Shown here in pieces: positions 1 to 13,854 of a stretch of 34,099 bases of DNA. Position 1 is the stretch's first letter. Each line of letters opens with the position of its first letter. Location: positions 1-34,099 of the IMG/VR virus record IMGVR_UViG_3300042691_020264; one strand, given 5' to 3'. The notes under the pieces are model-generated. The model was not told the origin of the DNA, ran no database searches, and was given only the letters and a program-made list of their open reading frames with translations. The stretch comes from a virus. A program made the translations under genes and the position numbers.

Positions 1-3000
1 ACATCGATACTCCAGCTGAAAAAGCCGCTAGAGCAGCAAAACAGCCAAAAGATGCGCTGGGAAGATTTGCTAAAGTTGGAACTAAGGTTGTTATTGCTGA
101 CGATTTTGCTCGTGGCAAGGGAGAAATCACTGCCATAAATACTGACGACGGTACCGTAGACGTCTTGCTTGAAAATGGCGAGGTAGTCACTGTCCCATCT
201 AACACCGTTAAGGGTCAAGACGAAGAGCTAGAGGGACTAAAAGTCCAAACCCGCCCAATGGGTGCTCCACTAGACATGTCTGGAATTTTGGGAGAACCTA
301 GAACTCCTTCAAACAGGCCAAAGGCTCACCTACCCGGAACTCTTCCCCCTATGACCAGGGACGAGCTCAGGTCAATGATGTACAACTGGGACTCTTGGGT
401 AATTAGCCAAAGAAAGAAGTTTAAGCCGCTAACTTCTGCTGGCGAGCCGACTGGTAAGACCCAAACTCCAGAAACGTCTGATATTCCTGCAAAATATTTG
501 GCTCTAGTCTCTCCGGATGACAAGACTGCCGTTATGGATATTGTTGCTCTGGTTCCAGAGACAAAAGAAACTACTACTCCAGTTCTTTATGAAAGAAAAG
601 ATGGAACTTGGCAGAGAAATGACCAGATTCTTATGGATCTTAAGTCTTCAACTCCACCACCAGTAGTAGAGCTAGATGATAAAGAAGTTCTAAACGATGT
701 TCTTGTTCAAGCAGACCAAGGTATGACTTCTTCAGCCTACAATTTCCACATTTTCTGGGAAACAGTTGTAGAACCACTTCTATCAGCTGGCGGTGTAGAT
801 CGTAACCGTGGAAACGCCGAAGCACTTCGCCGCTACTGGACTCGTGGTAAGGGCGCTCTCAAGATCCGTTGGGGCACCCCTGGCGACTGGACCCGCTGCG
901 TCCGCCAGCTTTCCAAGTACATGGGACCTCGTGCAAAAGGCTATTGCCAGCTTCGCCACAAGGAAGTTACTGGTGTATATACCGGAAGCAAGTTCAATGT
1001 CGGTAAAAAGCGTGGTCGTCAAGCTTCAGCTAGCCTTTTTGCCAGTGAGCAAGAGTTTGACACTGCAATTGTTCAACGTGCAGAGCTAGCAGCTAGAGCG
1101 GCCGATGCCAGAGAAAAAATTGGTCTAGTAGCAGCTGCCCCTAAGCCTGCTCATGGAGCGAGATTCTTTATTCCAATGCTTATCCCGGAAGAAGTAGAGT
1201 CGGGAGACGGTCGCAGGTTTGACAAAGGCGCTATCTCGATGAGGGAGCTACCAGTTCCACTACTTTGGCAGATTAAGACTGGCCAGGGACACGATGGCTC
1301 AGTTGTGGTTGGTAGAATTGACTACATCGAGCGTGTAGATGGCGGAATGGGGAATGCTTACGGAGTATTTGACAGCGGTCCATACGGACGTGAAGCAGAG
1401 CGTCTAGTCCGTCACGGATTCCTGCGTGGAGTTTCTGTTGACCTTGACCAGTTCGAGGCAAAAGAAGACAAGAAGCCATCAAAAGAAACTGCTGATGATG
1501 GTCAAGAATACGGCAAAGACAAACTAACTATCAATAAGGCCCGAATCATGGCTGCTACAATTGTAGCTAAGCCCGCATTCCAAGAATGCTCTATTCTCAT
1601 TGAAGAATCAGGGGATCAGGAGGATATTGTGACCCCAGAAGACGGCGTTTACGAAGAGTCTCTAGAGACCTTTGCTGACGTCGAGCCAATCATTGCTTCA
1701 GGATATCTGGAATCAGAAATTCCAGTTACTCCTCCAGCTTCATGGTTTGAAAACCCGAAGTTGACAAAGCCAACTCCACTAACCGTGGACAAAGATGGTC
1801 GTATCTACGGCCACATTGCAGCATGGCACGTCAGCCACATCGGTCTACCACGCTCGACTAAGCCACCACGCTCAAGAAGCAAGTACGCTTACTTCCACAC
1901 AGGCGTAATTCACACTGCCGAGGGAATGGACATTCCTGTAGGTCAGCTAACCCTTGCTGGCGGACACGCCCCACTAAACGTAGATGCTGCCGCAGCTGCT
2001 AAGCACTATGACGACACCGCCTCTGCAGTAGCAGACGTTCACATGGGAGAAGACGAGTACGGCATTTGGTGCGCTGGATCCCTCCGTCCAGACGTAGATG
2101 AGATGCAGGTTCGTGCACTTCGTGCTTCTGCCCCTTCTGGAGACTGGCGTCCAATCAACGGCTCTTTGGAGCTCGTTGCAGTTTGCCAGGTGAATGTTCC
2201 AGGATTCCCGATTGCTCGTGCAATGGTTGCTTCCGGCAAGATTATGGCTCTTGTTGCCGCCGGTGCCTCTGAGCTTGCAATTATGAAGAGTCGTGCAGTT
2301 GGAAACCTGGTTGCACAGGCTGACATGCTTGGTCAGCTAGCAGCTAGCGCACCTAACCTAAAAGATCGTGTCAGGGAAGCAAAAAAGAAAATGCGTGAGG
2401 CAAACCTAGAGGCTATTACCGCTAGTGCTGCTGAAATGCGTGAAAAAGCCTTAACTGCAGCAGCTGTTGCAGAGCTTGCCAAGATTTCTGAAGAAGAGCG
2501 TATGGCTCTTGCTAAAGAAGGTAAGGCAATGCCAGATGGCGCATACCCAATTCGCAACGTTGAAGATCTGAAGAATGCTATTCAGGCTTATGGTCGTTCT
2601 AAAGCTTCCGAGCGCAAAGCTGTTCGCAAGCACATCATCAAGCGTGCTCGCAAGCTGCGCCAAGCTGATTTGATCCCTAGCCACTGGCTACACGCTGACT
2701 CAATGGAAGCTGCAGAGAAGGTCGCTGCTATGCGTGCAGCAATCACTGCAGCTGCAACTGGCGAGTTTAGAGACTACTCGGAAGAGACCCGCGAAAAGTA
2801 TGCAGAAGAAGGGCTTGCTCTTCCAGATGGATCATTTCCAATCGAGAATGAGGAAGATCTAAAGCGTGCAATCAAGGCTCATGGTCGCGCAAAAGACATC
2901 GAGCTTGCTAAAAAGCATATCGTTAAGAGAGCAAAGGCTCTAGGTAGAGAAGATCTGATTCCAGAAGAATGGACTTCTAAAACTGCCGCTGCCTATGTTC

Positions 3001-3683
3001 GAGAGGTGGTGGTGGCTGCCGGCCCAAAAGCCGAGGAGATCTCTGATACAGAGCTTAAGAAGCTTAAAGAAGCTAAAGAAGAAGCTGATAAGCAAACTGA
3101 GGAAGAGATCAAAGCTGCCGAAGAAGTAGAAAAAGCTAAGTCTGCACCTATTCGCGATGAGGAAGGCCGAGTTAAATATATCTCTGGCGTTAACCAGCCT
3201 CGCGACGCTAAAGGCAAGTACCGCAAAGTTCTAGCTCGACTAAAGCAAGACCTAGGGGTTGCTGGTTTGTCTCGTGCTCTGAAGAAGGTAGAAGACGCTG
3301 AAAACCTAGACTTTGCAGGAGACTACGCTGCATCTGCAGCTGCTAGCTCTGAGCTTCTAGGGATGATCGATCGACTCGACGCTCAAGCGCTTAACCCGGA
3401 AGCTCTAGAGAATGTCCGTCTCACCGCAGCTGAGCTAGGAAAAACTATTGCAAATCTACCTCTACCTTTTGGTAAAGAAGCCCAAAAAGTTAGATATAGC
3501 GATCTGCCTGTAGGTCTTAAAGACCTAATAGAGGGCATGATTGACAGGGTAGAATCAAAGATTGGTAAGGAAGACGCAGATATAGCTACCCAAAAGCTAA
3601 AGTCTTACATGTCAGGTGCTGATGTCTTTTCTCAGGGAGAGGTTCAGTCCGAGATGAGTAAGCTACTTCGACTACTTACCTAA
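1..3683 (+). CDS. Capsid maturation (prohead) protease, multidomain, 5' partial
   Basis: The reading frame is open from base 3 with no stop, so the gene starts left of the window; TTG 165 is only an internal codon. Residues below count from 165. An SH3/KOW-like stretch (about 95-210) leads to a domain with YWTRGKGALKIRWGTPGDW (about 225-275) that recurs in actinophage head proteins. The HK97-type (U35-like) serine protease lies at about 330-480, with likely catalytic His376 (GHDGSVVVGRI) and Ser424 (LRGVSVDL), spaced as in the family. A second conserved domain follows (about 535-710, VNVPGFPIARA), then two tandem copies of a DUF6582-like repeat (774-841 and 868-936), charged helices and a C-terminal helical region. 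The protease should cut scaffold and capsid N-termini during head assembly; the major capsid gene follows 118 bases downstream. At over 1170 residues it is far longer than the roughly 200-residue stand-alone proteases. Protease call firm; roles of the other domains unknown. Confidence 0.85.
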   Translation, partial: IDTPAEKAARAAKQPKDALGRFAKVGTKVVIADDFARGKGEITAINTDDGTVDVLLENGEVVTVPSNTVKGQDEELEGLKVQTRPMGAPLDMSGILGEPRTPSNRPKAHLPGTLPPMTRDELRSMMYNWDSWVISQRKKFKPLTSAGEPTGKTQTPETSDIPAKYLALVSPDDKTAVMDIVALVPETKETTTPVLYERKDGTWQRNDQILMDLKSSTPPPVVELDDKEVLNDVLVQADQGMTSSAYNFHIFWETVVEPLLSAGGVDRNRGNAEALRRYWTRGKGALKIRWGTPGDWTRCVRQLSKYMGPRAKGYCQLRHKEVTGVYTGSKFNVGKKRGRQASASLFASEQEFDTAIVQRAELAARAADAREKIGLVAAAPKPAHGARFFIPMLIPEEVESGDGRRFDKGAISMRELPVPLLWQIKTGQGHDGSVVVGRIDYIERVDGGMGNAYGVFDSGPYGREAERLVRHGFLRGVSVDLDQFEAKEDKKPSKETADDGQEYGKDKLTINKARIMAATIVAKPAFQECSILIEESGDQEDIVTPEDGVYEESLETFADVEPIIASGYLESEIPVTPPASWFENPKLTKPTPLTVDKDGRIYGHIAAWHVSHIGLPRSTKPPRSRSKYAYFHTGVIHTAEGMDIPVGQLTLAGGHAPLNVDAAAAAKHYDDTASAVADVHMGEDEYGIWCAGSLRPDVDEMQVRALRASAPSGDWRPINGSLELVAVCQVNVPGFPIARAMVASGKIMALVAAGASELAIMKSRAVGNLVAQADMLGQLAASAPNLKDRVREAKKKMREANLEAITASAAEMREKALTAAAVAELAKISEEERMALAKEGKAMPDGAYPIRNVEDLKNAIQAYGRSKASERKAVRKHIIKRARKLRQADLIPSHWLHADSMEAAEKVAAMRAAITAAATGEFRDYSEETREKYAEEGLALPDGSFPIENEEDLKRAIKAHGRAKDIELAKKHIVKRAKALGREDLIPEEWTSKTAAAYVREVVVAAGPKAEEISDTELKKLKEAKEEADKQTEEEIKAAEEVEKAKSAPIRDEEGRVKYISGVNQPRDAKGKYRKVLARLKQDLGVAGLSRALKKVEDAENLDFAGDYAASAAASSELLGMIDRLDAQALNPEALENVRLTAAELGKTIANLPLPFGKEAQKVRYSDLPVGLKDLIEGMIDRVESKIGKEDADIATQKLKSYMSGADVFSQGEVQSEMSKLLRLLT

Positions 3684-3801: not shown

Positions 3802-5886
3802 GTGTACGACCAAATCAAAACTCAGCTTGATACTATCGCTGAGCTTGGCGACGAGCAAGTCGCAGAGCTTCAGGCAGAGATTATCAGCCAGTTTGAAATG
3901 GTCGAGGGTGAAGACCCTACTCCTGAGACAGTTGATGCTATGACGTCGCTAGCCGACTCTCTTGACATTGTTCGTGGCGAGCTATCTCGTCGCGAAGCTC
4001 TTGCTGCAGAGCTTGCAGCAAAGGCCGCTGAAGCAGCTGCCCGTGTCAAGGGCGAGGGCTATGGCGACAAGGGAGAAGAAATGGCTATGACCGAAGACGA
4101 GGCTATGAAGGAAGAGTCTCCAGCAGAAGACATGCCAGCGGAGGAAGCTCCAGCTGAAGACATGCCTGTGGAGATGGAACCAGAAGCCGAAATGGAAGAG
4201 CCCATGGAAGAGTCCGAGGAAGAGGAAAAGAAGGAGGATGAGATGTCAATTCAGGCATCCGCCGAGAACGAGGCCGCAACCGAGGAAGTTTCTAGTGAGC
4301 CAGCCGCTGAGGTAAGTGCAGATGCAACTCCTGTTGCAGAAGCCGAGCTATCAGCAGACGTAGAGGTTGCAACTGAGGCAGTAGCCGAAGTTGTAGAGGA
4401 GTCTGCAAACGAAGCATCAACCGATCAGGAAGACGGTTCTGAACTATCGACCAATACAGAAGAGGCAACTGAGCTTTCTACCGAAGAGTCTGCAGAAGCA
4501 GCCGTAGAGGTAGAACCAGCAGCAGAGCTTTCTTCTGAAGAAACAATTGAAACATCAACCGCTCTCGTAGAAGAGCAGAAGGAGCAGGCACTAGTGAGCG
4601 CCGCAGAAGAGAAGCCTTTCGAGGCTCCAGCTGACCGCCAGCCTGTAGTTCAGGTTACCGAGGCTCCAGTGGCAATCACCGCTGGTGCTGACATCCCTGG
4701 CTACACCGCGGGAAGCACAATTCAGGACATGGCAGAGGTTGCTCGCGCCATGGAGAAGAGACTACACTCTCTTCGTCGTGTAAACGGTGGAGACGGAGAG
4801 CAGCACATTGTTGCTTCCTTCACCACTCAGTACCCAGAGGAGAGATTCCTCGGTACTGACGCAGAGGCAAACGCCGCAAAGATCGAGGCAGTTGTAGGTC
4901 AGGAAGCACTTACCGCTTCTGGTGGCCACGCAGCTCCAGTCGAGGTTCGCTACGACATCTTCGGCATTGGCTCAACCACTGTACGTCCGGTACGCGACGC
5001 TCTGCCACGTTTCCAGGCAGACCGCGGCGGTATCCGCTTCGTAACCCCACCAAGCTTCGCAGCTGGAACCTACGCTAACGCAGTTGGCGTATGGACCGCA
5101 GCTACGGATGCAGCCCCATACTCAAACACCAAGACCAGCCTGACTGTTTCAGCTGCTGCCGAGAACACCGTCTCAACTGACGCTGTAACTCTACAGCTGC
5201 AGTTCGGTAACCTCATGACTCGTGCATACCCAGAGTTGATTGCTCGCCACAACGAGCTAGCTCTCGTACAGCACGCACGTGAGGCAGAGCAGAACCTGCT
5301 CAGCAACATTGCATCTGGCTCTACCGCTGTTACCACTACTTCCCTAATCGGTTTTGGTCGTGACTTCCTGGTACAGCTTCGTCGTGCAGCTGCTGCTTAC
5401 CGTTCACGTCACCGTCTAGCTCCAAACGCCGTACTCAAGGCAATTATTCCTGCCTGGGTATACGACGCAATGGCAGCTGACTTGACTCTGGCAATGCCAG
5501 GAGACAGCACTCTGTCTGTATCACAGGCCGAGATCAACGGCTACCTGTCAACCATCAACGTTGACCTAGTAGCTTCTCCAGACGCAACTCCGTTTGGTTC
5601 TCAGGGTGCAACTGCACTCGTAGAGTTCCCAGACAGCTTCGTATGGTACTTGTTCGCAGAGGGAACCTTCCTATTCCTGGACGGTGGAACTCTCGACCTA
5701 GGTATCATCCGCGACAGCTCCCTCGTAGGAACCAACGACTACAAGATGTTCGTTGAGACCTTCGAGAACGTTGCCAAGGTTGGTATCGAGTCTCTAGCAA
5801 TCACCTCGACCATCTCGGTCAACGGTGTTGCTGCTGCTCTACGCGACACCACTGGTGGCGCAACCGCAGCTGCTATCGAGCTCTAA
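3802..5886 (+). CDS. Major capsid protein with N-terminal scaffold-like domain
   Basis: The start is GTG at 3802, set by a strong Shine-Dalgarno AGGAGG at 3792-3797. The 694 residues split in three: a helical, probably coiled-coil N-terminus (about 1-85); a long Glu/Ala/Pro/Val low-complexity acidic stretch (about 86-285); and a folded C-terminal part (about 291-694) that reads like an HK97-fold capsid protein (RYDIFGIGSTTVRPVRDALP, GGIRFVTPP, FVWYLFAEGTFLFLDGGTLD). HK97-fold capsid proteins usually need only 300-400 residues. No separate scaffold gene is seen between protease and capsid, so the N-terminal 290 residues probably act as a fused scaffold (delta domain) removed by the upstream protease. 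Codons are richer in C-ending forms (TTC, TAC, GAC, AAC) than in the tail genes, as expected for the most abundant virion protein. The main uncertainty is the cleavage point. Confidence 0.8.
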   Translation: MYDQIKTQLDTIAELGDEQVAELQAEIISQFEMVEGEDPTPETVDAMTSLADSLDIVRGELSRREALAAELAAKAAEAAARVKGEGYGDKGEEMAMTEDEAMKEESPAEDMPAEEAPAEDMPVEMEPEAEMEEPMEESEEEEKKEDEMSIQASAENEAATEEVSSEPAAEVSADATPVAEAELSADVEVATEAVAEVVEESANEASTDQEDGSELSTNTEEATELSTEESAEAAVEVEPAAELSSEETIETSTALVEEQKEQALVSAAEEKPFEAPADRQPVVQVTEAPVAITAGADIPGYTAGSTIQDMAEVARAMEKRLHSLRRVNGGDGEQHIVASFTTQYPEERFLGTDAEANAAKIEAVVGQEALTASGGHAAPVEVRYDIFGIGSTTVRPVRDALPRFQADRGGIRFVTPPSFAAGTYANAVGVWTAATDAAPYSNTKTSLTVSAAAENTVSTDAVTLQLQFGNLMTRAYPELIARHNELALVQHAREAEQNLLSNIASGSTAVTTTSLIGFGRDFLVQLRRAAAAYRSRHRLAPNAVLKAIIPAWVYDAMAADLTLAMPGDSTLSVSQAEINGYLSTINVDLVASPDATPFGSQGATALVEFPDSFVWYLFAEGTFLFLDGGTLDLGIIRDSSLVGTNDYKMFVETFENVAKVGIESLAITSTISVNGVAAALRDTTGGATAAAIEL

Positions 5887-5904
5887 AAACTAAATAGCAA
5901 CAAA

Positions 5905-5945
5905 GGGTTAGCTCCTGGGGCTTCGGCCCCGGGGGCGCCCAACCC
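5905..5945 (+). terminator. Strong UUCG-loop hairpin after the capsid gene
   Basis: An 11-base-pair stem (GCTCCTGGGGC with GCCCCGGGGGC, two G-T wobbles) closes on a TTCG tetraloop, and outer GGGTT/AACCC arms extend it. It starts 18 bases after the capsid stop codon. No T run follows, so termination may be partial, or the hairpin may protect the 3' end of the capsid message. Confidence 0.55.
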
Positions 5946-5970
5946 CTAAAAGATTTAAGTTAGGAAAAAG

Positions 5971-6846
5971 ATGGCTTTCCCCAATAACGGCGTAGTAGAG
6001 GCACCACTAATTCTGCCCTCCGCCTTTGGTCTACTTGCTGTAGTCAAGCCAGAAAACTCAGCCGACGAGGACCGCTGGATCCGAGGATTTGCCCAGGAAT
6101 GGGAAACCACTGTTCAGAATGTGTCAAACTGGGATGACACTGACACTACAGAAGCACAACTTGTAAATGGCGCTACTGTCAACTATTACGATGACATCAA
6201 GCCATTTTTCATCGAGGTCGAAGAGACTCGCTCAACTCTAGGTTTTATCGGACTTGACCGAATTGCAAGAATCACTCGTCAGCTCGAAGGCGTCACTCAG
6301 AAATCTATAGAAGCTGAACTCTGGGACGGAGCAGTCCGTAAAGGAGAGAGCCACGACAACAAGGCTCTCACCTCTAACACTGTTACGGTTCTAAACTCTG
6401 GAACAGCTCTTTCAGCAAAGCGTGCTTTGGCTCTGCTTGAGTACACAATCGGTTCAGTCTCTCACGGTGGAGAGCAGGGAATCATTCACATGACCCGAGA
6501 CGTTGCTGCGATCCTTTCTAGCAACTCAAACATGCTTTTCCACGACAAAGGAAAAGAGCACCTTCAGACTCTTGGAGGCACTCCTGTTGTTGTCGGTTCT
6601 GGTTATTCAGGTACCGGACCAGACGGAGACGCTGGAGCTACCGCTTCCGCTACTAACAAATGGATTTACGCGACCGGCACTGTTAAGACATATGTAGGCA
6701 ATGTCGATATCGTAAACGACAACTTAAGCCAAGCTTTTGATGTCAATGGTAACCAAAATGACATGCGTCTCAAAGCAATCCGCCCAGCCGCGGTTTACTT
6801 TGACACATCCATCCACCTCGCTGTCCGGGTAGACCTGACAGCCTAA
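5971..6846 (+). CDS. Second capsid-like structural protein (putative minor capsid)
   Basis: A 291-residue protein with ATG at 5971 and a weak AGGAAA ribosome site. Motifs such as GLDRIARITRQLEGVTQKSI, ELWDG, a helix with AKRALALLEYTIG, GIIHMTRDVAAILSSN and LGTPVVVGSGY-like text (here LGGTPVVVGSGYSG) resemble proteins of HK97-fold type next to the major capsid gene in other actinophages. It has no N-terminal scaffold region. Placed between the major capsid and tail-tube genes, it could be a minor capsid or vertex protein, or another head component. The fold is inferred from pattern, not shown; structural role likely, exact role uncertain. Confidence 0.5.
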   Translation: MAFPNNGVVEAPLILPSAFGLLAVVKPENSADEDRWIRGFAQEWETTVQNVSNWDDTDTTEAQLVNGATVNYYDDIKPFFIEVEETRSTLGFIGLDRIARITRQLEGVTQKSIEAELWDGAVRKGESHDNKALTSNTVTVLNSGTALSAKRALALLEYTIGSVSHGGEQGIIHMTRDVAAILSSNSNMLFHDKGKEHLQTLGGTPVVVGSGYSGTGPDGDAGATASATNKWIYATGTVKTYVGNVDIVNDNLSQAFDVNGNQNDMRLKAIRPAAVYFDTSIHLAVRVDLTA

Positions 6847-9935: not shown

Positions 9936-10442
9936 ATGTATGGCCTTCCGGATTCAATTGCCGGATACTATGCTTTAAAATACTCTAGGTCATTTAGGAG
10001 AATAAGATCTTCTAGAGGCGGCTCTCGCGGGGTTGTATTTTCTTTTGCAGTATCTAATGTAGAGATATATCAAAACGCTCTTAGGGCTGAACTTCAAACT
10101 CCAGCCGGTGGTCTATGGAAGTACCTGGAAAAACAGGGAAGTAAAGCAGTAGCAGCCGCAAAAAGGCAAGTTGGAGTTAAAACCGGCGCTTTAAGACGGT
10201 CTATACATATGAAACACCTAGCAAATGCTAATGGGCAGTATCTCTGGATAGGTTCCAATAAAAACTATGCCTATATCCACCACGAGGGAACTAGACCACA
10301 CATAATTACACCGACAAAAGCTAAAGCTCTTAGATTTACTTCTGGAAGAAGAGTTATATACACAAGGATGGTCAAACATCCTGGAACAAAGCCAAATAGA
10401 TACTTGTCTAATCAGCTTAGATTTTTCATGATGAAGGTTTAA
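9936..10442 (+). CDS. HK97 gp10-like neck protein
   Basis: ATG at 9936 is one base after the previous stop. The 168 residues carry the gp10-like core: a helix with QNALRAELQTPAGGLWKYL, AKRQVGVKTGALRRSIHM, then YLWIGSNKNYAYIHHEGTRP and GRRVIYTRMVKHPGTKPNRY. The TGALRRSI, YIHHEGTRPH and HPGTKP elements are typical of this family, which joins head and tail. The N-terminal 35 residues are Arg/Ser rich and probably flexible. The next genes are the tail assembly chaperones, as is common in siphoviruses. Confidence 0.65.
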   Translation: MYGLPDSIAGYYALKYSRSFRRIRSSRGGSRGVVFSFAVSNVEIYQNALRAELQTPAGGLWKYLEKQGSKAVAAAKRQVGVKTGALRRSIHMKHLANANGQYLWIGSNKNYAYIHHEGTRPHIITPTKAKALRFTSGRRVIYTRMVKHPGTKPNRYLSNQLRFFMMKV

Positions 10443-10501
10443 TTTGTGGGGTAAAATATAGATGTCAAATGACCAAATAATGATAGAAAGAGTAAATATA
10501 A

Positions 10502-10837
10502 ATGACTGATCGTTTTAAAGACTTTGGTTCTGGAAATAAGTCCGAAAAAGCTGCAATTAAGTTCAAGCTCCACGATGAGGAGTTTCAGTGCGTTTCGGAA
10601 ATTCAAGGAAAAGTTCTTCTTGACATGGTTAGCAGATCCCAGTCGGATGACCCTGTAGTCGCAGCTAACGTTGTTACAGACTTTTTTGAAAGAGTTTTGA
10701 CCGATGAAAGCTTGGATAGATTCAACGCTTTGACATTGGACAAGGAAAGAATTGTTACGATGGAGACTTTGTCAGAAATCGTAGCATGGCTGATTGAGGA
10801 GTACACTGGACGCCCAAATCAGCAGCCAGAGGTTTAA
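10502..10837 (+). CDS. Tail assembly chaperone, short form (G-like)
   Basis: The 111-residue unshifted product starts at ATG 10502. It contains KFKLHDEEFQCVSEIQGKVL and a helical remainder (VVTDFFERVLTDESLDRFNA, IVAWLIEEYTGRPNQQPEV), the form of actinophage tail assembly chaperones coded directly before the tape measure gene. It should bind the tape measure before tube polymerisation. Slippery site CCCAAAT at 10813-10819 lies six codons before its stop; shifted ribosomes make the long form. A purine-rich stretch (GATAGAAAGAG) upstream may serve as the ribosome site, and GGTAAAATAT at 10450-10459 is a possible promoter element. Confidence 0.75.
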   Translation: MTDRFKDFGSGNKSEKAAIKFKLHDEEFQCVSEIQGKVLLDMVSRSQSDDPVVAANVVTDFFERVLTDESLDRFNALTLDKERIVTMETLSEIVAWLIEEYTGRPNQQPEV

Positions 10838-11226
10838 TTAGCTGGGCAATAGACCTCTGGCCATACGTTAATGGTAAAGCATTAACAAACAACTTAAGAT
10901 TGCCAGAAATGGAGGCATCAGACATGAGTGATGTTATTCATTTTTATTTTGAAGAGGACTCGAAATACGCCTCCGCTGAACAAGCAGAGTCGATAAGCAA
11001 GCTTAGGAACCAGCTGTACTTGATGTACAACCAAATATACAAGTACGGCATGTCTGGATCTAGGTCTAGCAGAGCTTACATGCCAAAAGGCTCTTCAGCA
11101 GACTACGGGTTCGATGATGACGGGCTAGGAGCAGTTGGAGAAAGTAAACCTTACATTCCTCCAACAGACTTCAATCCAGAGTCAGTGAATCCATTTGGTC
11201 CAGATCTTGATGCACCATTAAATTAG
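10502..11226 (+). CDS. Tail assembly chaperone, -1 frameshift long form (GT-like)
   Basis: Join of 10502-10819 and 10819-11226, giving about 241 residues. The second frame is open from before the slippery site, and its only early start (TTG 10900) has no ribosome site, so it is most likely reached by frameshifting. CCCAAAT sits in the zero frame as C CCA AAT, allowing both tRNAs to slip back one base. Five bases later comes a 9-base-pair hairpin (10825-10833 with 10853-10861), the classic arrangement of slip site, spacer and structure. The second-frame part has a helical segment (KLRNQLYLMYNQIYKYGMSG) and a disordered Gly/Ser/Pro C-terminus. The ratio of long to short form usually matters for tail assembly in siphoviruses. 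This is a strong sequence-based call. Confidence 0.8.
10813..10861 (+). promoter_or_regulatory. -1 ribosomal frameshift signal (slippery heptamer plus hairpin)
   Basis: Heptamer CCCAAAT at 10813-10819, spacer CAGCA, then stem GCCAGAGGT (10825-10833) with ACCTCTGGC (10853-10861) around a 19-base loop. A second perfect hairpin, GTTAATG with CATTAAC (10867-10873 and 10880-10886), follows directly and could add to the pause. Confidence 0.8.
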
Positions 11227-11238
11227 GAGGTGAATTAA

Positions 11239-13854
11239 TTGGCAGTTGTCGGCGAAGCGCATATTATTGTTCGCGCTATAACCACTGGAGTTGCCAATGA
11301 CATTCGCCGAGGGTTTAGTGGCTTAAGCGGGAACACCGACCGAATTGCAAGCCGCGCTGGTCAATCTCTTGGAGATGCTTTTCTAAAGGGCTTTAACAGA
11401 AGTGGCTCTAACGTATTTAGTAATCTAGCTAATCAACTAGAAGCCATAGTTCCAGATGCTGAAGCAGCGCGTCTAGGTTTTAGGCGTCTTGTTAGAACAA
11501 GTTTTACCCTAGGTCCAGCTATTGCTGGAATTATTGGTGGCATCTCGGCTCTAATTGGAGCTTTAGGAGCATTGGTTGGTGCTGCTGGAGGTGCGGCAGC
11601 AAGCCTACTTGGCGTTGTTAGTGCCGCAATACAGTTACGTGTTGGTTTTGCTTTAGCTGGCTTTGCTCTAAATGGAGTAAGTCAAGCAGTTTCTGCTGCC
11701 ACGGATGTAAATAGTACTTATTCGCGTAGCGTTAGGCAGGCTAGAGAAGAACTTCAACAACTCAAGTTTGAGGCAGAAGAAGCAGCTCTTTCCCAAGAAG
11801 AAGCAGCTATAAATCTAGAAAAAGCTAGAGAAGCACTTCTTAGGGCTCAAGATCTACCAATCAACTCTAGAGAGCGTCGAGAAGCAGAGCTTGCAGCAAA
11901 GCAAGCAGAGCTGGCTTATAGAAGAGCCAAGGATAGAAACCAAGACGTTGCTGAAGAGCTAGAAAAAGGCGCTAATGCAGGAGTAAATGACCCGTACGCT
12001 AACCTAACTCCTGCTCAAAAAGAGTTTGCAAAATTCCTTGTCAGTTTAAAAGGCACAATTGATGAGCTTAGAGACGCTGTTGCTAGAGGCTTCTTGCCTG
12101 GCCTCGAGAGAGGAATTACAACTCTTCAAAAGGCATTCGGGAATAGACTAGAGCCAGCTTTAGAGTCGTTTGGCAACAGTCTTGGCACTGCTATTGATAA
12201 CTTTGTTGCTGGATTTACTCGAGGCGGCGGTCCTGCCAAGGTCTTGGAATTTCTCGAGCTAGCCGGACCAAACATTGAAGAGTTTGGTCGAATTGCCGGA
12301 GAGCTTTTTGGAGTTGTAGTAGACCTTTTAGTAGAGGCAGAGCCCCTAACAGACGGCTTCATTGGGTTCCTTAGTGACTCAGTTGCAAGCTTTAAAACCT
12401 TTATTGACACTGCCAAAGGCGACGGTTCTCTACAAGAGTTCTTTACCAAGGCAATGGAAAGCGCCGACCTATTTGGTCAAATAATTGGAAATATTTTCAA
12501 CTTTTTCGGCGACATCATTGGTGCTAACGTTGGAGAAGACAGTCCTGGTGGAGAGCTGCTCAAATTCTTCAGAGATGCCACGGCAAATCTAGCTTCGCTG
12601 GGGGACAGCGCCGAGGGCGGCACTTCCCCCCTACAAGACTTTTTCAAGAGTGCTGTAGAAAACGCCAAGCCCGTCTTGTCGCTTCTTGGTGGAATCTTAA
12701 AAGCATTCCTAGACCTTGGAACTAACGAAAATATTGGAAAAGCATTCGAGACTCTTGCAGCTCCGGAAAACATAGAAACTTTCCAAAACTTCCTAAACGA
12801 GCTTGCTGACTCTGCCCCGACCTTGGCAGAGCTGGGGGTTGCACTTGGAGACATAATTGCGGCGCTCACGGATAGCGGCGCGGCTGACATTTTCCTAGGA
12901 ATTCTTAGAGATGCGTTTACGTTCATAAGAGACATTCTTCAAAATGAAGTAGTAATTGGATTCCTAGACTTTATTGGAAGAATTTTTGCAGCAGTTTCTG
13001 CTATTACATTCCTAATTGGAAGCTTCCGTCTATTTGGAAAGGTTATCATAGGCATCCTTATACAGGCTCTAAGAAATTTTGGTGGGCTCATAGGATTTAT
13101 AGGAAATCTTCAAAGCTTTTTCCTTAGGCTCATTCTTAGCGGGGGGCAGTTCCTAGGTCTAGTGGGGCGTATTGGAATGTTTTTAACCGGTCCGCTTGGT
13201 ATAGCAATAGGACTAATTACCACCGCTCTTACTTTTTTCTTTACTCAAACTGAGTTGGGTAAGCAAATATGGGAAGACTTCTCAAAGTTTATTGGTGACG
13301 CCTGGAACAAGACCGTAGAAAATATCAGTAAGGGCTGGGACCAAATCATTGGATTCTTCTCCAATATCGGCCCGAATCTAGGGAACATATTTAAGGGAAT
13401 TGTAAACTTTGTTCTTGATGTCTGGGAAGGGTTCATAAATAACCTAATTACTGGAATCAATACAGGAATTTTAGCTGCTATAAATAATATAAAAATTGAA
13501 ATTCCTCAATGGGTTAGGGATGGAGCTGCTTTACTGGGCTTCAATCTTCCAACTAACGTAGGCTTTAATCTTCCTCCTATAGCCGCATATAGAATTCCTA
13601 GACTTGCAGACGGCGGTATCGTGATGCCTTCTACTGGTGGAACGCTTGCCCAGATTGCAGAAGCCGGAAGGCCGGAGCGTGTAGAGCCTTTAGATCCAAG
13701 TGGCTTATCTCGAAGGGATAGAGCACTTATCGCTGAGCTATCAGGCAATGGTATGAACATCAACGTATACCCGTCTGCTGGTATGGATGAAAGAGAGCTA
13801 GCAGAAATGGTGTCTAGACGTATTGCATCCGAGATTAGAAAAGGAAGAATCTAA
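11239..13854 (+). CDS. Tape measure protein
   Basis: The start is TTG at 11239, fixed by AGGAGG at 11225-11230, which overlaps the chaperone stop codon. At 871 residues it would span a tail of roughly 130 nm by the usual 1.5 angstrom per residue rule. Features: a Gly/Ala hydrophobic segment (about residues 92-150), a coiled-coil Ala/Glu/Arg region (about 170-245, EEAALSQEEAAINLEKAREA), a long helical middle, and a second hydrophobic region (about 570-680) with likely membrane-active helices (FLDFIGRIFAAVSAITFLIG). The C-terminus carries RLADGGIVMPSTGGTLAQIAEAG, widely seen at tape measure C-termini. It sets tail length and probably helps DNA pass the host membrane. No lysozyme or peptidase motif was recognised. 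Confidence 0.9.
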   Translation: MAVVGEAHIIVRAITTGVANDIRRGFSGLSGNTDRIASRAGQSLGDAFLKGFNRSGSNVFSNLANQLEAIVPDAEAARLGFRRLVRTSFTLGPAIAGIIGGISALIGALGALVGAAGGAAASLLGVVSAAIQLRVGFALAGFALNGVSQAVSAATDVNSTYSRSVRQAREELQQLKFEAEEAALSQEEAAINLEKAREALLRAQDLPINSRERREAELAAKQAELAYRRAKDRNQDVAEELEKGANAGVNDPYANLTPAQKEFAKFLVSLKGTIDELRDAVARGFLPGLERGITTLQKAFGNRLEPALESFGNSLGTAIDNFVAGFTRGGGPAKVLEFLELAGPNIEEFGRIAGELFGVVVDLLVEAEPLTDGFIGFLSDSVASFKTFIDTAKGDGSLQEFFTKAMESADLFGQIIGNIFNFFGDIIGANVGEDSPGGELLKFFRDATANLASLGDSAEGGTSPLQDFFKSAVENAKPVLSLLGGILKAFLDLGTNENIGKAFETLAAPENIETFQNFLNELADSAPTLAELGVALGDIIAALTDSGAADIFLGILRDAFTFIRDILQNEVVIGFLDFIGRIFAAVSAITFLIGSFRLFGKVIIGILIQALRNFGGLIGFIGNLQSFFLRLILSGGQFLGLVGRIGMFLTGPLGIAIGLITTALTFFFTQTELGKQIWEDFSKFIGDAWNKTVENISKGWDQIIGFFSNIGPNLGNIFKGIVNFVLDVWEGFINNLITGINTGILAAINNIKIEIPQWVRDGAALLGFNLPTNVGFNLPPIAAYRIPRLADGGIVMPSTGGTLAQIAEAGRPERVEPLDPSGLSRRDRALIAELSGNGMNINVYPSAGMDERELAEMVSRRIASEIRKGRI

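Follow-up and report, generated by a model that had tools for sequence, protein, structure and literature searches.

In the IMG/VR record IMGVR_UViG_3300042691_020264, a programmed -1 frameshift very probably joins the two parts of a siphophage tail assembly chaperone, one G-like and the other T-like. The whole stretch analysed, positions 1–34,099 of that record (34,099 nt), is referred to here as the window. The frame anatomy is conserved among relatives, the -1 frame is under protein-like selection past the 0-frame stop, and the first stem 3' of the slip site is conserved and covaries. Taken alone, the signal in the window is unremarkable and of a well-known kind, whereas the surrounding family is out of the ordinary. 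We give about even chances to the reading that one orthologous site has switched repeatedly between a two-tRNA and a one-tRNA slip, with the stem moving about one codon along.

The upstream ORF (10502–10837; all features are on the plus strand) encodes 111 residues in the 0 frame and ends at the TAA at 10835–10837. The -1 frame is open from 10798 to 11226, across the gap, as the initial annotation had noted, and would provide the C-terminal extension of the fusion (137 residues from 10813). It ends just 5' of the tape measure protein gene (11239–13854), which matches PHROG tape measure families (best E 6.4e-34). G/GT chaperones are likewise encoded by two overlapping ORFs immediately 5' of a tape measure gene. 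Near the end of the upstream ORF, the slippery heptamer CCCAAAT (10813–10819) is phased C_CCA_AAT, and its C_CCA tetramer (10813–10816) overlaps a CGC_CCA core composed of an Arg and a Pro codon (10811–10816). The 5-nt spacer CAGCA (10820–10824) separates the heptamer from a putative stimulatory stem-loop (10825–10861), the 12-nt arms of which (10825–10836 and 10850–10861) are complementary at 11 of 12 positions (92%) and contain an unbroken run of 9 bp. The window thus carries a canonical X_XXY_YYZ tandem-slip arrangement of CCCAAAT, 5 nt, and stem. The frame of the heptamer, the spacer, and the 9-bp stem agree with the initial annotation; its core observation of a slip signal holds, and the annotation as a whole is partly confirmed.

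The segment 10813–10886 folds at -25.2 kcal/mol (z -4.2), and none of 200 shuffles folds as well. The stem region alone is not rare, as 49 of 1,174 tiled windows fold as well, and the 7-mer CCCAAAT alone is no more frequent in the window than chance predicts (3 occurrences, with 3.4 expected). In-frame X_XXY_YYZ motifs number 23 in the 8,642 codons of 18 window ORFs; therefore, about 0.03 is expected in the two-frame overlap of about 12 codons. An Rfam scan of 10400–11300 returned a single hit (E 0.99) under its gathering score, and no tRNA genes were found in the window.

In the proposed mechanism, most ribosomes would terminate at the TAA at 10835–10837 and yield the 111-residue short form. 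A minority would be held by the stem at 10825–10861; their Pro tRNA, on CCA, and their Asn tRNA, on AAT, would each move one base backward, onto CCC and AAA, and translation would continue in the -1 frame to 11226.

To collect related sites, IMG/VR was queried with the -1 product, its alignments, the upstream protein, and a seed from phage Mimi. The relatives taken were 11 of 11, the best 80 of 99, 3 of 3 (Mimi seed), and the best 80 of 452, 385, 214, and 300, and nine named phage records were added. The counts below describe the sites closest to the seeds, and many of the loci repeat a single contig. Over -30 to +90, 260 rows reduce to 140 distinct stretches and 408 rows to 182, and the distinct sites are not independent of one another. 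Positions with a sign are counted from the first base of the slip site (10813 in the window) as 0. Rows too near the contig start, rows with a match beginning after residue 6, L001 (a copy of the window), and L098 and L099, neither of which matches the -1 product, were dropped; the phages GMA2 and Phendrix drop out of the 182-site set. L097 was left out of alignment A5, and L097 and L263 were left out of the independent-pairs test below. A search of genome contigs with alignment A1 gave 21 stretches that fit the pattern, with no homolog confirmed among them.

The upstream protein is in the 0 frame and the -1 product is in phase at all 182 distinct sites. CGYCC is kept at all of them as well (CGC in 173, CGT in 9), compared with CGY at 31% and CGC at 13% of the other Arg codons of the upstream ORFs (140 sites). 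No site has A or G at the base before CC. After a -1 slip, a proline tRNA would be able to re-pair on CCC or, through a G:U pair in the first position, on UCC; only C or U would allow this. The canonical heptamer, in contrast, is not conserved, since X_XXY_YYZ occurs at only 25 of the 182 sites. The commonest 7-mers are CCCGGAA (61), CCCTACG (55), CCCAAAT (22), CCCTACA (7), and CCCTATG (5), followed by TCCTCAA (4), CCCAAAA (3), and fourteen others, and a tree of the 182 rows requires at least 47 changes of 7-mer. A purine after CC goes with a re-pairable next codon at 71 of 76 sites, compared with 1 of 64 otherwise (first 140 sites). Because CCCGAAC counts as re-pairable by G:U in this tally yet has the stem of the other class, the stricter grouping CCCAAAN/CCCGGAA was adopted for the re-pairable class. 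Outside this grouping are 96 of the 182 sites, 9 of them U_CCN. These relatives fit a Z_ZZN tetramer, which the window does not. The initial annotation had named relatives lacking both heptamer and stem as evidence against a frameshift signal. On this point the relatives give a mixed picture: the canonical heptamer is missing from 157 of the 182 sites, but CGY_CCN and its phasing are kept throughout, and of the first 140 sites 130 retain 5 or more of the 7 pairs in the core of the stem.

The 7-bp core of the first stem (+12 to +18 with +42 to +48) is fully paired at 98 of the 140 sites. In 62 divergent sequences, 88.7% of the cells of the first stem are paired, compared with 29–58% in slid controls, and the covariation score of the stem is matched by 1 of 500 shuffles of these sequences. 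Both arms are also coding; therefore, the encoded protein accounts for part of the stem conservation. The remainder is represented by codon bias and by double changes: CTC is the codon used for the Leu of the 3' arm at 110 of 140 sites, compared with 12% of other Leu codons, and double-sided changes are found in L065 and L239. RNAalifold on the 62 sequences did not recover the first stem and gave only three C-G pairs, between the CCC of the slip site and a GGG of the loop. This consensus was set aside because the slip bases are inside the ribosome at slippage, and explicit pair counts were used instead. At ten of the 140 sites, fewer than 5 of the 7 core positions pair; those of Cece, Pumpernickel, Zooman, and A3Wally, all Microbacterium phages, are among these sites. 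Other folds may serve there; of ten folds computed, one (L196) is no better than shuffles. Six CCCGGAA sites (L092, L093, L094, L096, L183, and L190), four of them in Microbacterium phage records, do without most of the common stem.

The initial annotation had proposed tandem hairpins as the stimulator. The second hairpin (10867–10886) is present in the window as described, with 7-bp arms at 10867–10873 and 10880–10886. Among the 140 distinct sites, however, all seven pairs form at only two, the window and the distant L092, and the pair counts are within those of shuffles. The second hairpin is probably incidental and was rejected as a stimulator, in contrast to the conserved and covarying first stem. 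The initial interpretation, a frameshift stimulated by two hairpins, is therefore supported in its first part.

A dnaX-type Shine-Dalgarno (SD) stimulator lies about 10 nt 5' of the slip site. The window has an SD-like GAGGAG at 10796–10801, 11 nt 5' of the heptamer, which we take to resemble the upstream stimulator of dnaX and which could be a 5' stimulator here. GAGGAG is found upstream of the slip site at 42 of 140 sites, and an SD-like 4-mer at 90 of 140, a raw count that is not controlled for the protein coded there. SD-like 4-mers are absent from all 9 T_CCN sites; an upstream SD is not general and was rejected as a required element.

The position of the first stem differs between the two classes of slip site. 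In the CCCAAAN/CCCGGAA class, the stem starts at +12, 5 nt past the heptamer, at 78 of 78 scorable sites, with 8 more sites unpaired. With the other motifs, it starts earlier at 78 of 95 sites (+7 to +11; +9 at 60 sites), with 1 more site unpaired. The earlier start is 1–5 nt, mostly 3 nt, upstream of +12, typically 5 nt after the bare C_CCN. The extension of the stem is accompanied by covariation between +10 and +50, the latter being the third base of a Pro codon, which is left free by the code. Given G at +11, +10 and +50 pair at 54 of 65 sites (36.8 expected) and in 21 of 25 divergent representatives (12.2 expected), while without G at +11 there is no excess.

The class grouping was chosen after the first 140 sites, of which 60 of 60 in the re-pairable class and 65 of 71 in the other class follow this rule, so that the 42 later sites are the sole held-out check. 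Among these, 18 of 18 in the re-pairable class follow the rule, and only 13 of 24 in the other class. The counts become 18 of 18 and 12 of 20 for the 38 later sites that are less than 90% identical to any earlier site. There are 17 exceptions in total. Fourteen fall within a single group of 22 rows (support 93), the other 8 rows of which follow the rule; the remaining ones are L100, L263 (phage Atuin), and L409. A set of 63 representatives with less than 82% identity gives the same picture, with the stem starting at +12 in 30 of 34 and at +13 in 4 of 34 in the re-pairable class, and at +11 or earlier in 25 of 28 in the other class. The 12 closest cross-class pairs listed, L240 and L228 among them, all agree with the rule, although several share branches. 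On supported branches there are 5 independent pairs, of which a mean of 4.7 differ the same way and none the opposite way (median p 0.06). When all branches of the best tree are used, 11 of 12 pairs differ the same way and 1 shows no difference (own script). L228 and L240 have near-identical chaperone proteins (0.06 changes per column) and different slip cassettes, CCCGAAC with the extended stem and CCCAAAA without the extension, as if the cassette had been exchanged or re-evolved as a unit. Far outside these sequences, Mimi and Atuin have C_CCT, and their main stem, of unrelated sequence, starts 6 nt after the tetramer.

A movement of the stem with the slip site could reflect the number of tRNAs that slip. 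According to the accessible text of a review, the usual spacer between heptamer and structure is 5–9 nt (PMC5009743). As far as the available part of PMC7282821 describes them, the dnaX and HIV stems hinder A-site tRNA binding when the P-site codon is 11–12 nt away. If Pro occupies the P site, the first base of its codon is 11 nt from a stem at +12; on account of this spacing, we propose that in the first class, which includes the window, two tRNAs slip while Pro is in the P site. A stem at +9 is 11 nt away when the Arg codon is in the P site, and on account of this second spacing we propose a one-tRNA slip with Pro in the A site for the second class. Where the next codon is re-pairable (C_CCA_AAW, C_CCG_GAA), both tRNAs would slip, with the stem 5 nt after the heptamer; where it is not, the Pro tRNA alone would slip on C_CCN, with a stem that usually extends about one codon more in the 5' direction and begins 5 nt past the tetramer. 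In this switching reading, the distance from the required A-site codon to the stem would remain 5 nt in either mode. Tetramer slippage of this kind appears in the accessible part of PMC4066793, where C_CCU and C_CCC shift as tetramers before a pseudoknot 5 nt on, and C_CCA and C_CCG belong to a group of four motifs that is only 1.8- to 3.6-fold above background. Sites with C_CCG and without a re-pairable next codon number 5 to 8 of 140, depending on how CCCGAAC is counted, and fit the ranking in that part of PMC4066793 poorly. The gene family may contain two interchangeable slippage modes, which the later-fetched sites support only partly.

The stem could instead be longer at its lower end for the reason that a poorer slip site needs a stronger stem, without the ribosome stopping any earlier, an account that we hold to be possible, if somewhat doubtful. 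It is consistent with a mean fold energy of -20.8 kcal/mol at non-canonical sites compared with -17.6 kcal/mol, and with a mean helix of 9.35 compared with 7.0 bp. The upper end of the stem, however, tends to retreat too, with +19 and +41 paired at 32 of 72 compared with 59 of 68 sites, and the commonest start is the tetramer plus 5 nt, as in the IS3 tetramer construct in the accessible part of PMC4066793. Both points speak against simple strengthening.

It is unlikely that the non-canonical relatives shift elsewhere in the overlap, for example on G_GGG (+9 to +12), instead of on CGY_CCN. GGGG is found at 9 of 9 T_CCN sites, compared with 38 of 131 C_CCN sites, and -1 re-pairing on GGG would be perfect. 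However, GGGG sits in the base of the extended stem, so that a ribosome there would already be inside the stem; CGYCC stays invariant; and no independent pair in the tree is informative for T_CCN against GGGG. GGGG is therefore disfavoured as an alternative slip site.

The -1 product is matched from residue 1, at the slip site, in 91 of 97 rows (the window and its copy included). Over +39 to +71, which is past the 0-frame stop at 137 of the first 140 sites (the other three stop at +55), pN/pS is 0.084 in the -1 frame, compared with 2.1 and 2.2 in the other frames; these and the following values are pooled counts over site pairs of 70–97% identity, which are not independent. The -1 frame gives 0.24 at +39 to +95 and 0.25 at +51 to +95, past the stem, and at +39 to +110 it gives 0.267, compared with 1.5 and 1.9 in the other frames. 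The upstream gene has a value of 0.280 in its own frame. An ATG is found in the -1 frame before +72 at only 3 of 140 sites, and ATG, GTG, or TTG at 0 to +71 at 32 of 140; therefore, a few relatives could start the -1 frame at a codon of their own there. Selection on the -1 frame ahead of its own start codons is again a property of G/GT chaperones. These observations are strong evidence at the sequence level that the -1 frame is translated as a fusion by frameshift, and the case for -1 frameshifting between the two chaperone ORFs, as initially annotated, is good: anatomy, conservation, and the selection acting on the -1 frame all speak for it.

The initial annotation had also stated that the second frame has no believable start of its own, which does not hold. 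The -1 frame has a TTG at 10900 and ATGs at 10909 and 10924, and the last is a plausible start that had been missed, preceded at 8 nt by GGAGG (10911–10915; the possible internal start spans 10911–10926). The downstream ORF would then be a separate gene read from ATG 10924 (or 10909) behind this SD, with no frameshift, which we consider very improbable. The anti-SD energy at ATG 10924 is strong (-9.3, compared with -2.4 at the upstream gene's own start), an ATG is kept at this place at 133 of 140 sites, and SD energy is -6 or lower at 33% of the sites with that ATG, compared with 11% of control positions. In addition, seven named phage records (Cece, Pumpernickel, Zooman, DSL-LC01, A3Wally, Mimi, and Atuin) annotate the downstream ORF as a separate hypothetical protein and leave the fusion unannotated, while in the GMA2 and Phendrix records the frameshift is annotated or the ORFs are joined. 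Against a separate gene, the -1 frame evolves as protein well 5' of these ATGs, as the value of 0.084 above demonstrates, and the best conserved residues of the -1 product (W11, A12, W16, P17, and G21) lie upstream of them. GAG, the codon that creates the internal SD, shows no clear enrichment: it is used for 31 of 75 Glu codons at this place and for 374 of 1,113 further on. An internal start could at most add a third product to the frameshift fusion, and such a T-only product from ATG 10924 is possible. Transcriptional slippage or sequencing error as the cause of the frame change has a negligible probability, since the run is only CCC, CCCC, or TCC and 182 distinct sites share the arrangement.

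The upstream protein is probably a tail assembly chaperone. All of its homologs, from 18 phage records (some of them duplicates), carry the label tail assembly chaperone or tail assembly protein. In BFVD, tail assembly chaperones of actinophages match the structure predicted for it, which has a mean pLDDT of 82.6 (for example Phendrix, E 1.9e-6). A PDB search with the predicted structure gave a weak match to the HK97 chaperone (E 1.2), and a PHROGs search with the upstream protein of the window gave no match at E 0.05. Despite these two results, homology and fold are shared with known chaperones, as for G/GT proteins. Neighbouring genes in the window match portal, major head, major tail, connector, tape measure, and Dit-like families, which identifies a siphophage structural operon. 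The named relatives infect mainly Microbacterium, Arthrobacter, and Gordonia; therefore, the phage is most likely an actinobacterial phage.

The -1 frameshift of lambda gpG/gpGT and its counterparts in other tailed phages were reportedly described by Xu et al. in 2004. The slip site of lambda is a canonical heptamer. In the G/GT kind, the fusion is produced in small proportion and tail assembly depends on it. The family here, unlike lambda, ranges from C_CCA_AAT to bare C_CCN, with the stem conserved in most members. According to the accessible text of PMC5009743, lambda gpG/gpGT and its tailed-phage counterparts have the same overlapping chaperone ORFs before the tape measure gene and likewise a -1 shift near the end of the first ORF, which puts a C-terminal extension on a minority product. 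For Z_ZZN tetramers, the accessible part of Sharma et al. 2014 (PMC4066793) describes a one-tRNA slip with the 3' structure 5 nt on in an IS3 construct, the measurements having been made in E. coli on synthetic motifs with a pseudoknot. The family here differs from what is described there in having a simple stem, C_CCG and U_CCN sites as well, and named relatives that infect Actinobacteria. CCCGGAA, the commonest motif here (61 of 182), is the 'threetwotwo' motif of PRFect in actinophage genomes, and G:U re-pairing at it has already been pointed out (PMC10885494). The accessible part of that paper does not trace CCCGGAA against C_CCA_AAT and C_CCT_ACG in one orthologous family, or relate it to stem position. 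Chaperone frameshifting, the CCCGGAA motif (PMC10885494), and tetramer slippage are already known. In literature outside subscription papers, we found no description of slip-site switching with stem movement in one orthologous family.

Since the textbook heptamer is the minority form here (25 of 182), tools that search for XXXYYYZ only would miss most family members. If the stem does move with the slippage mode, exchanging natural cassettes between close relatives would offer a test of an old question, whether one or two tRNAs slip and in which site of the ribosome; and if the switching reading is true, this phage family is a natural experiment on the codon held by the slipping ribosome.

The Gordonia phages GMA2 and Phendrix encode distant homologs of the upstream ORF (32% and 29% identity, respectively), and their sites are not C_CCN. 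In GMA2 the site is G_GGA_AAC, and a stem follows the heptamer at 5 nt; in Phendrix it is A_AAA_AAA, followed by only a weak fold. In L055, the upstream chaperone ORF (5684–6019) has an in-frame TAG at codon 20, and long neighbouring ORFs are open; the TAG may reflect an error, a mutation, or suppression. Elsewhere in the window, a 1172-residue ORF (165–3683) matches both portal (residues 332–771) and head maturation protease (residues 527–769) profiles and is possibly a portal-protease fusion.
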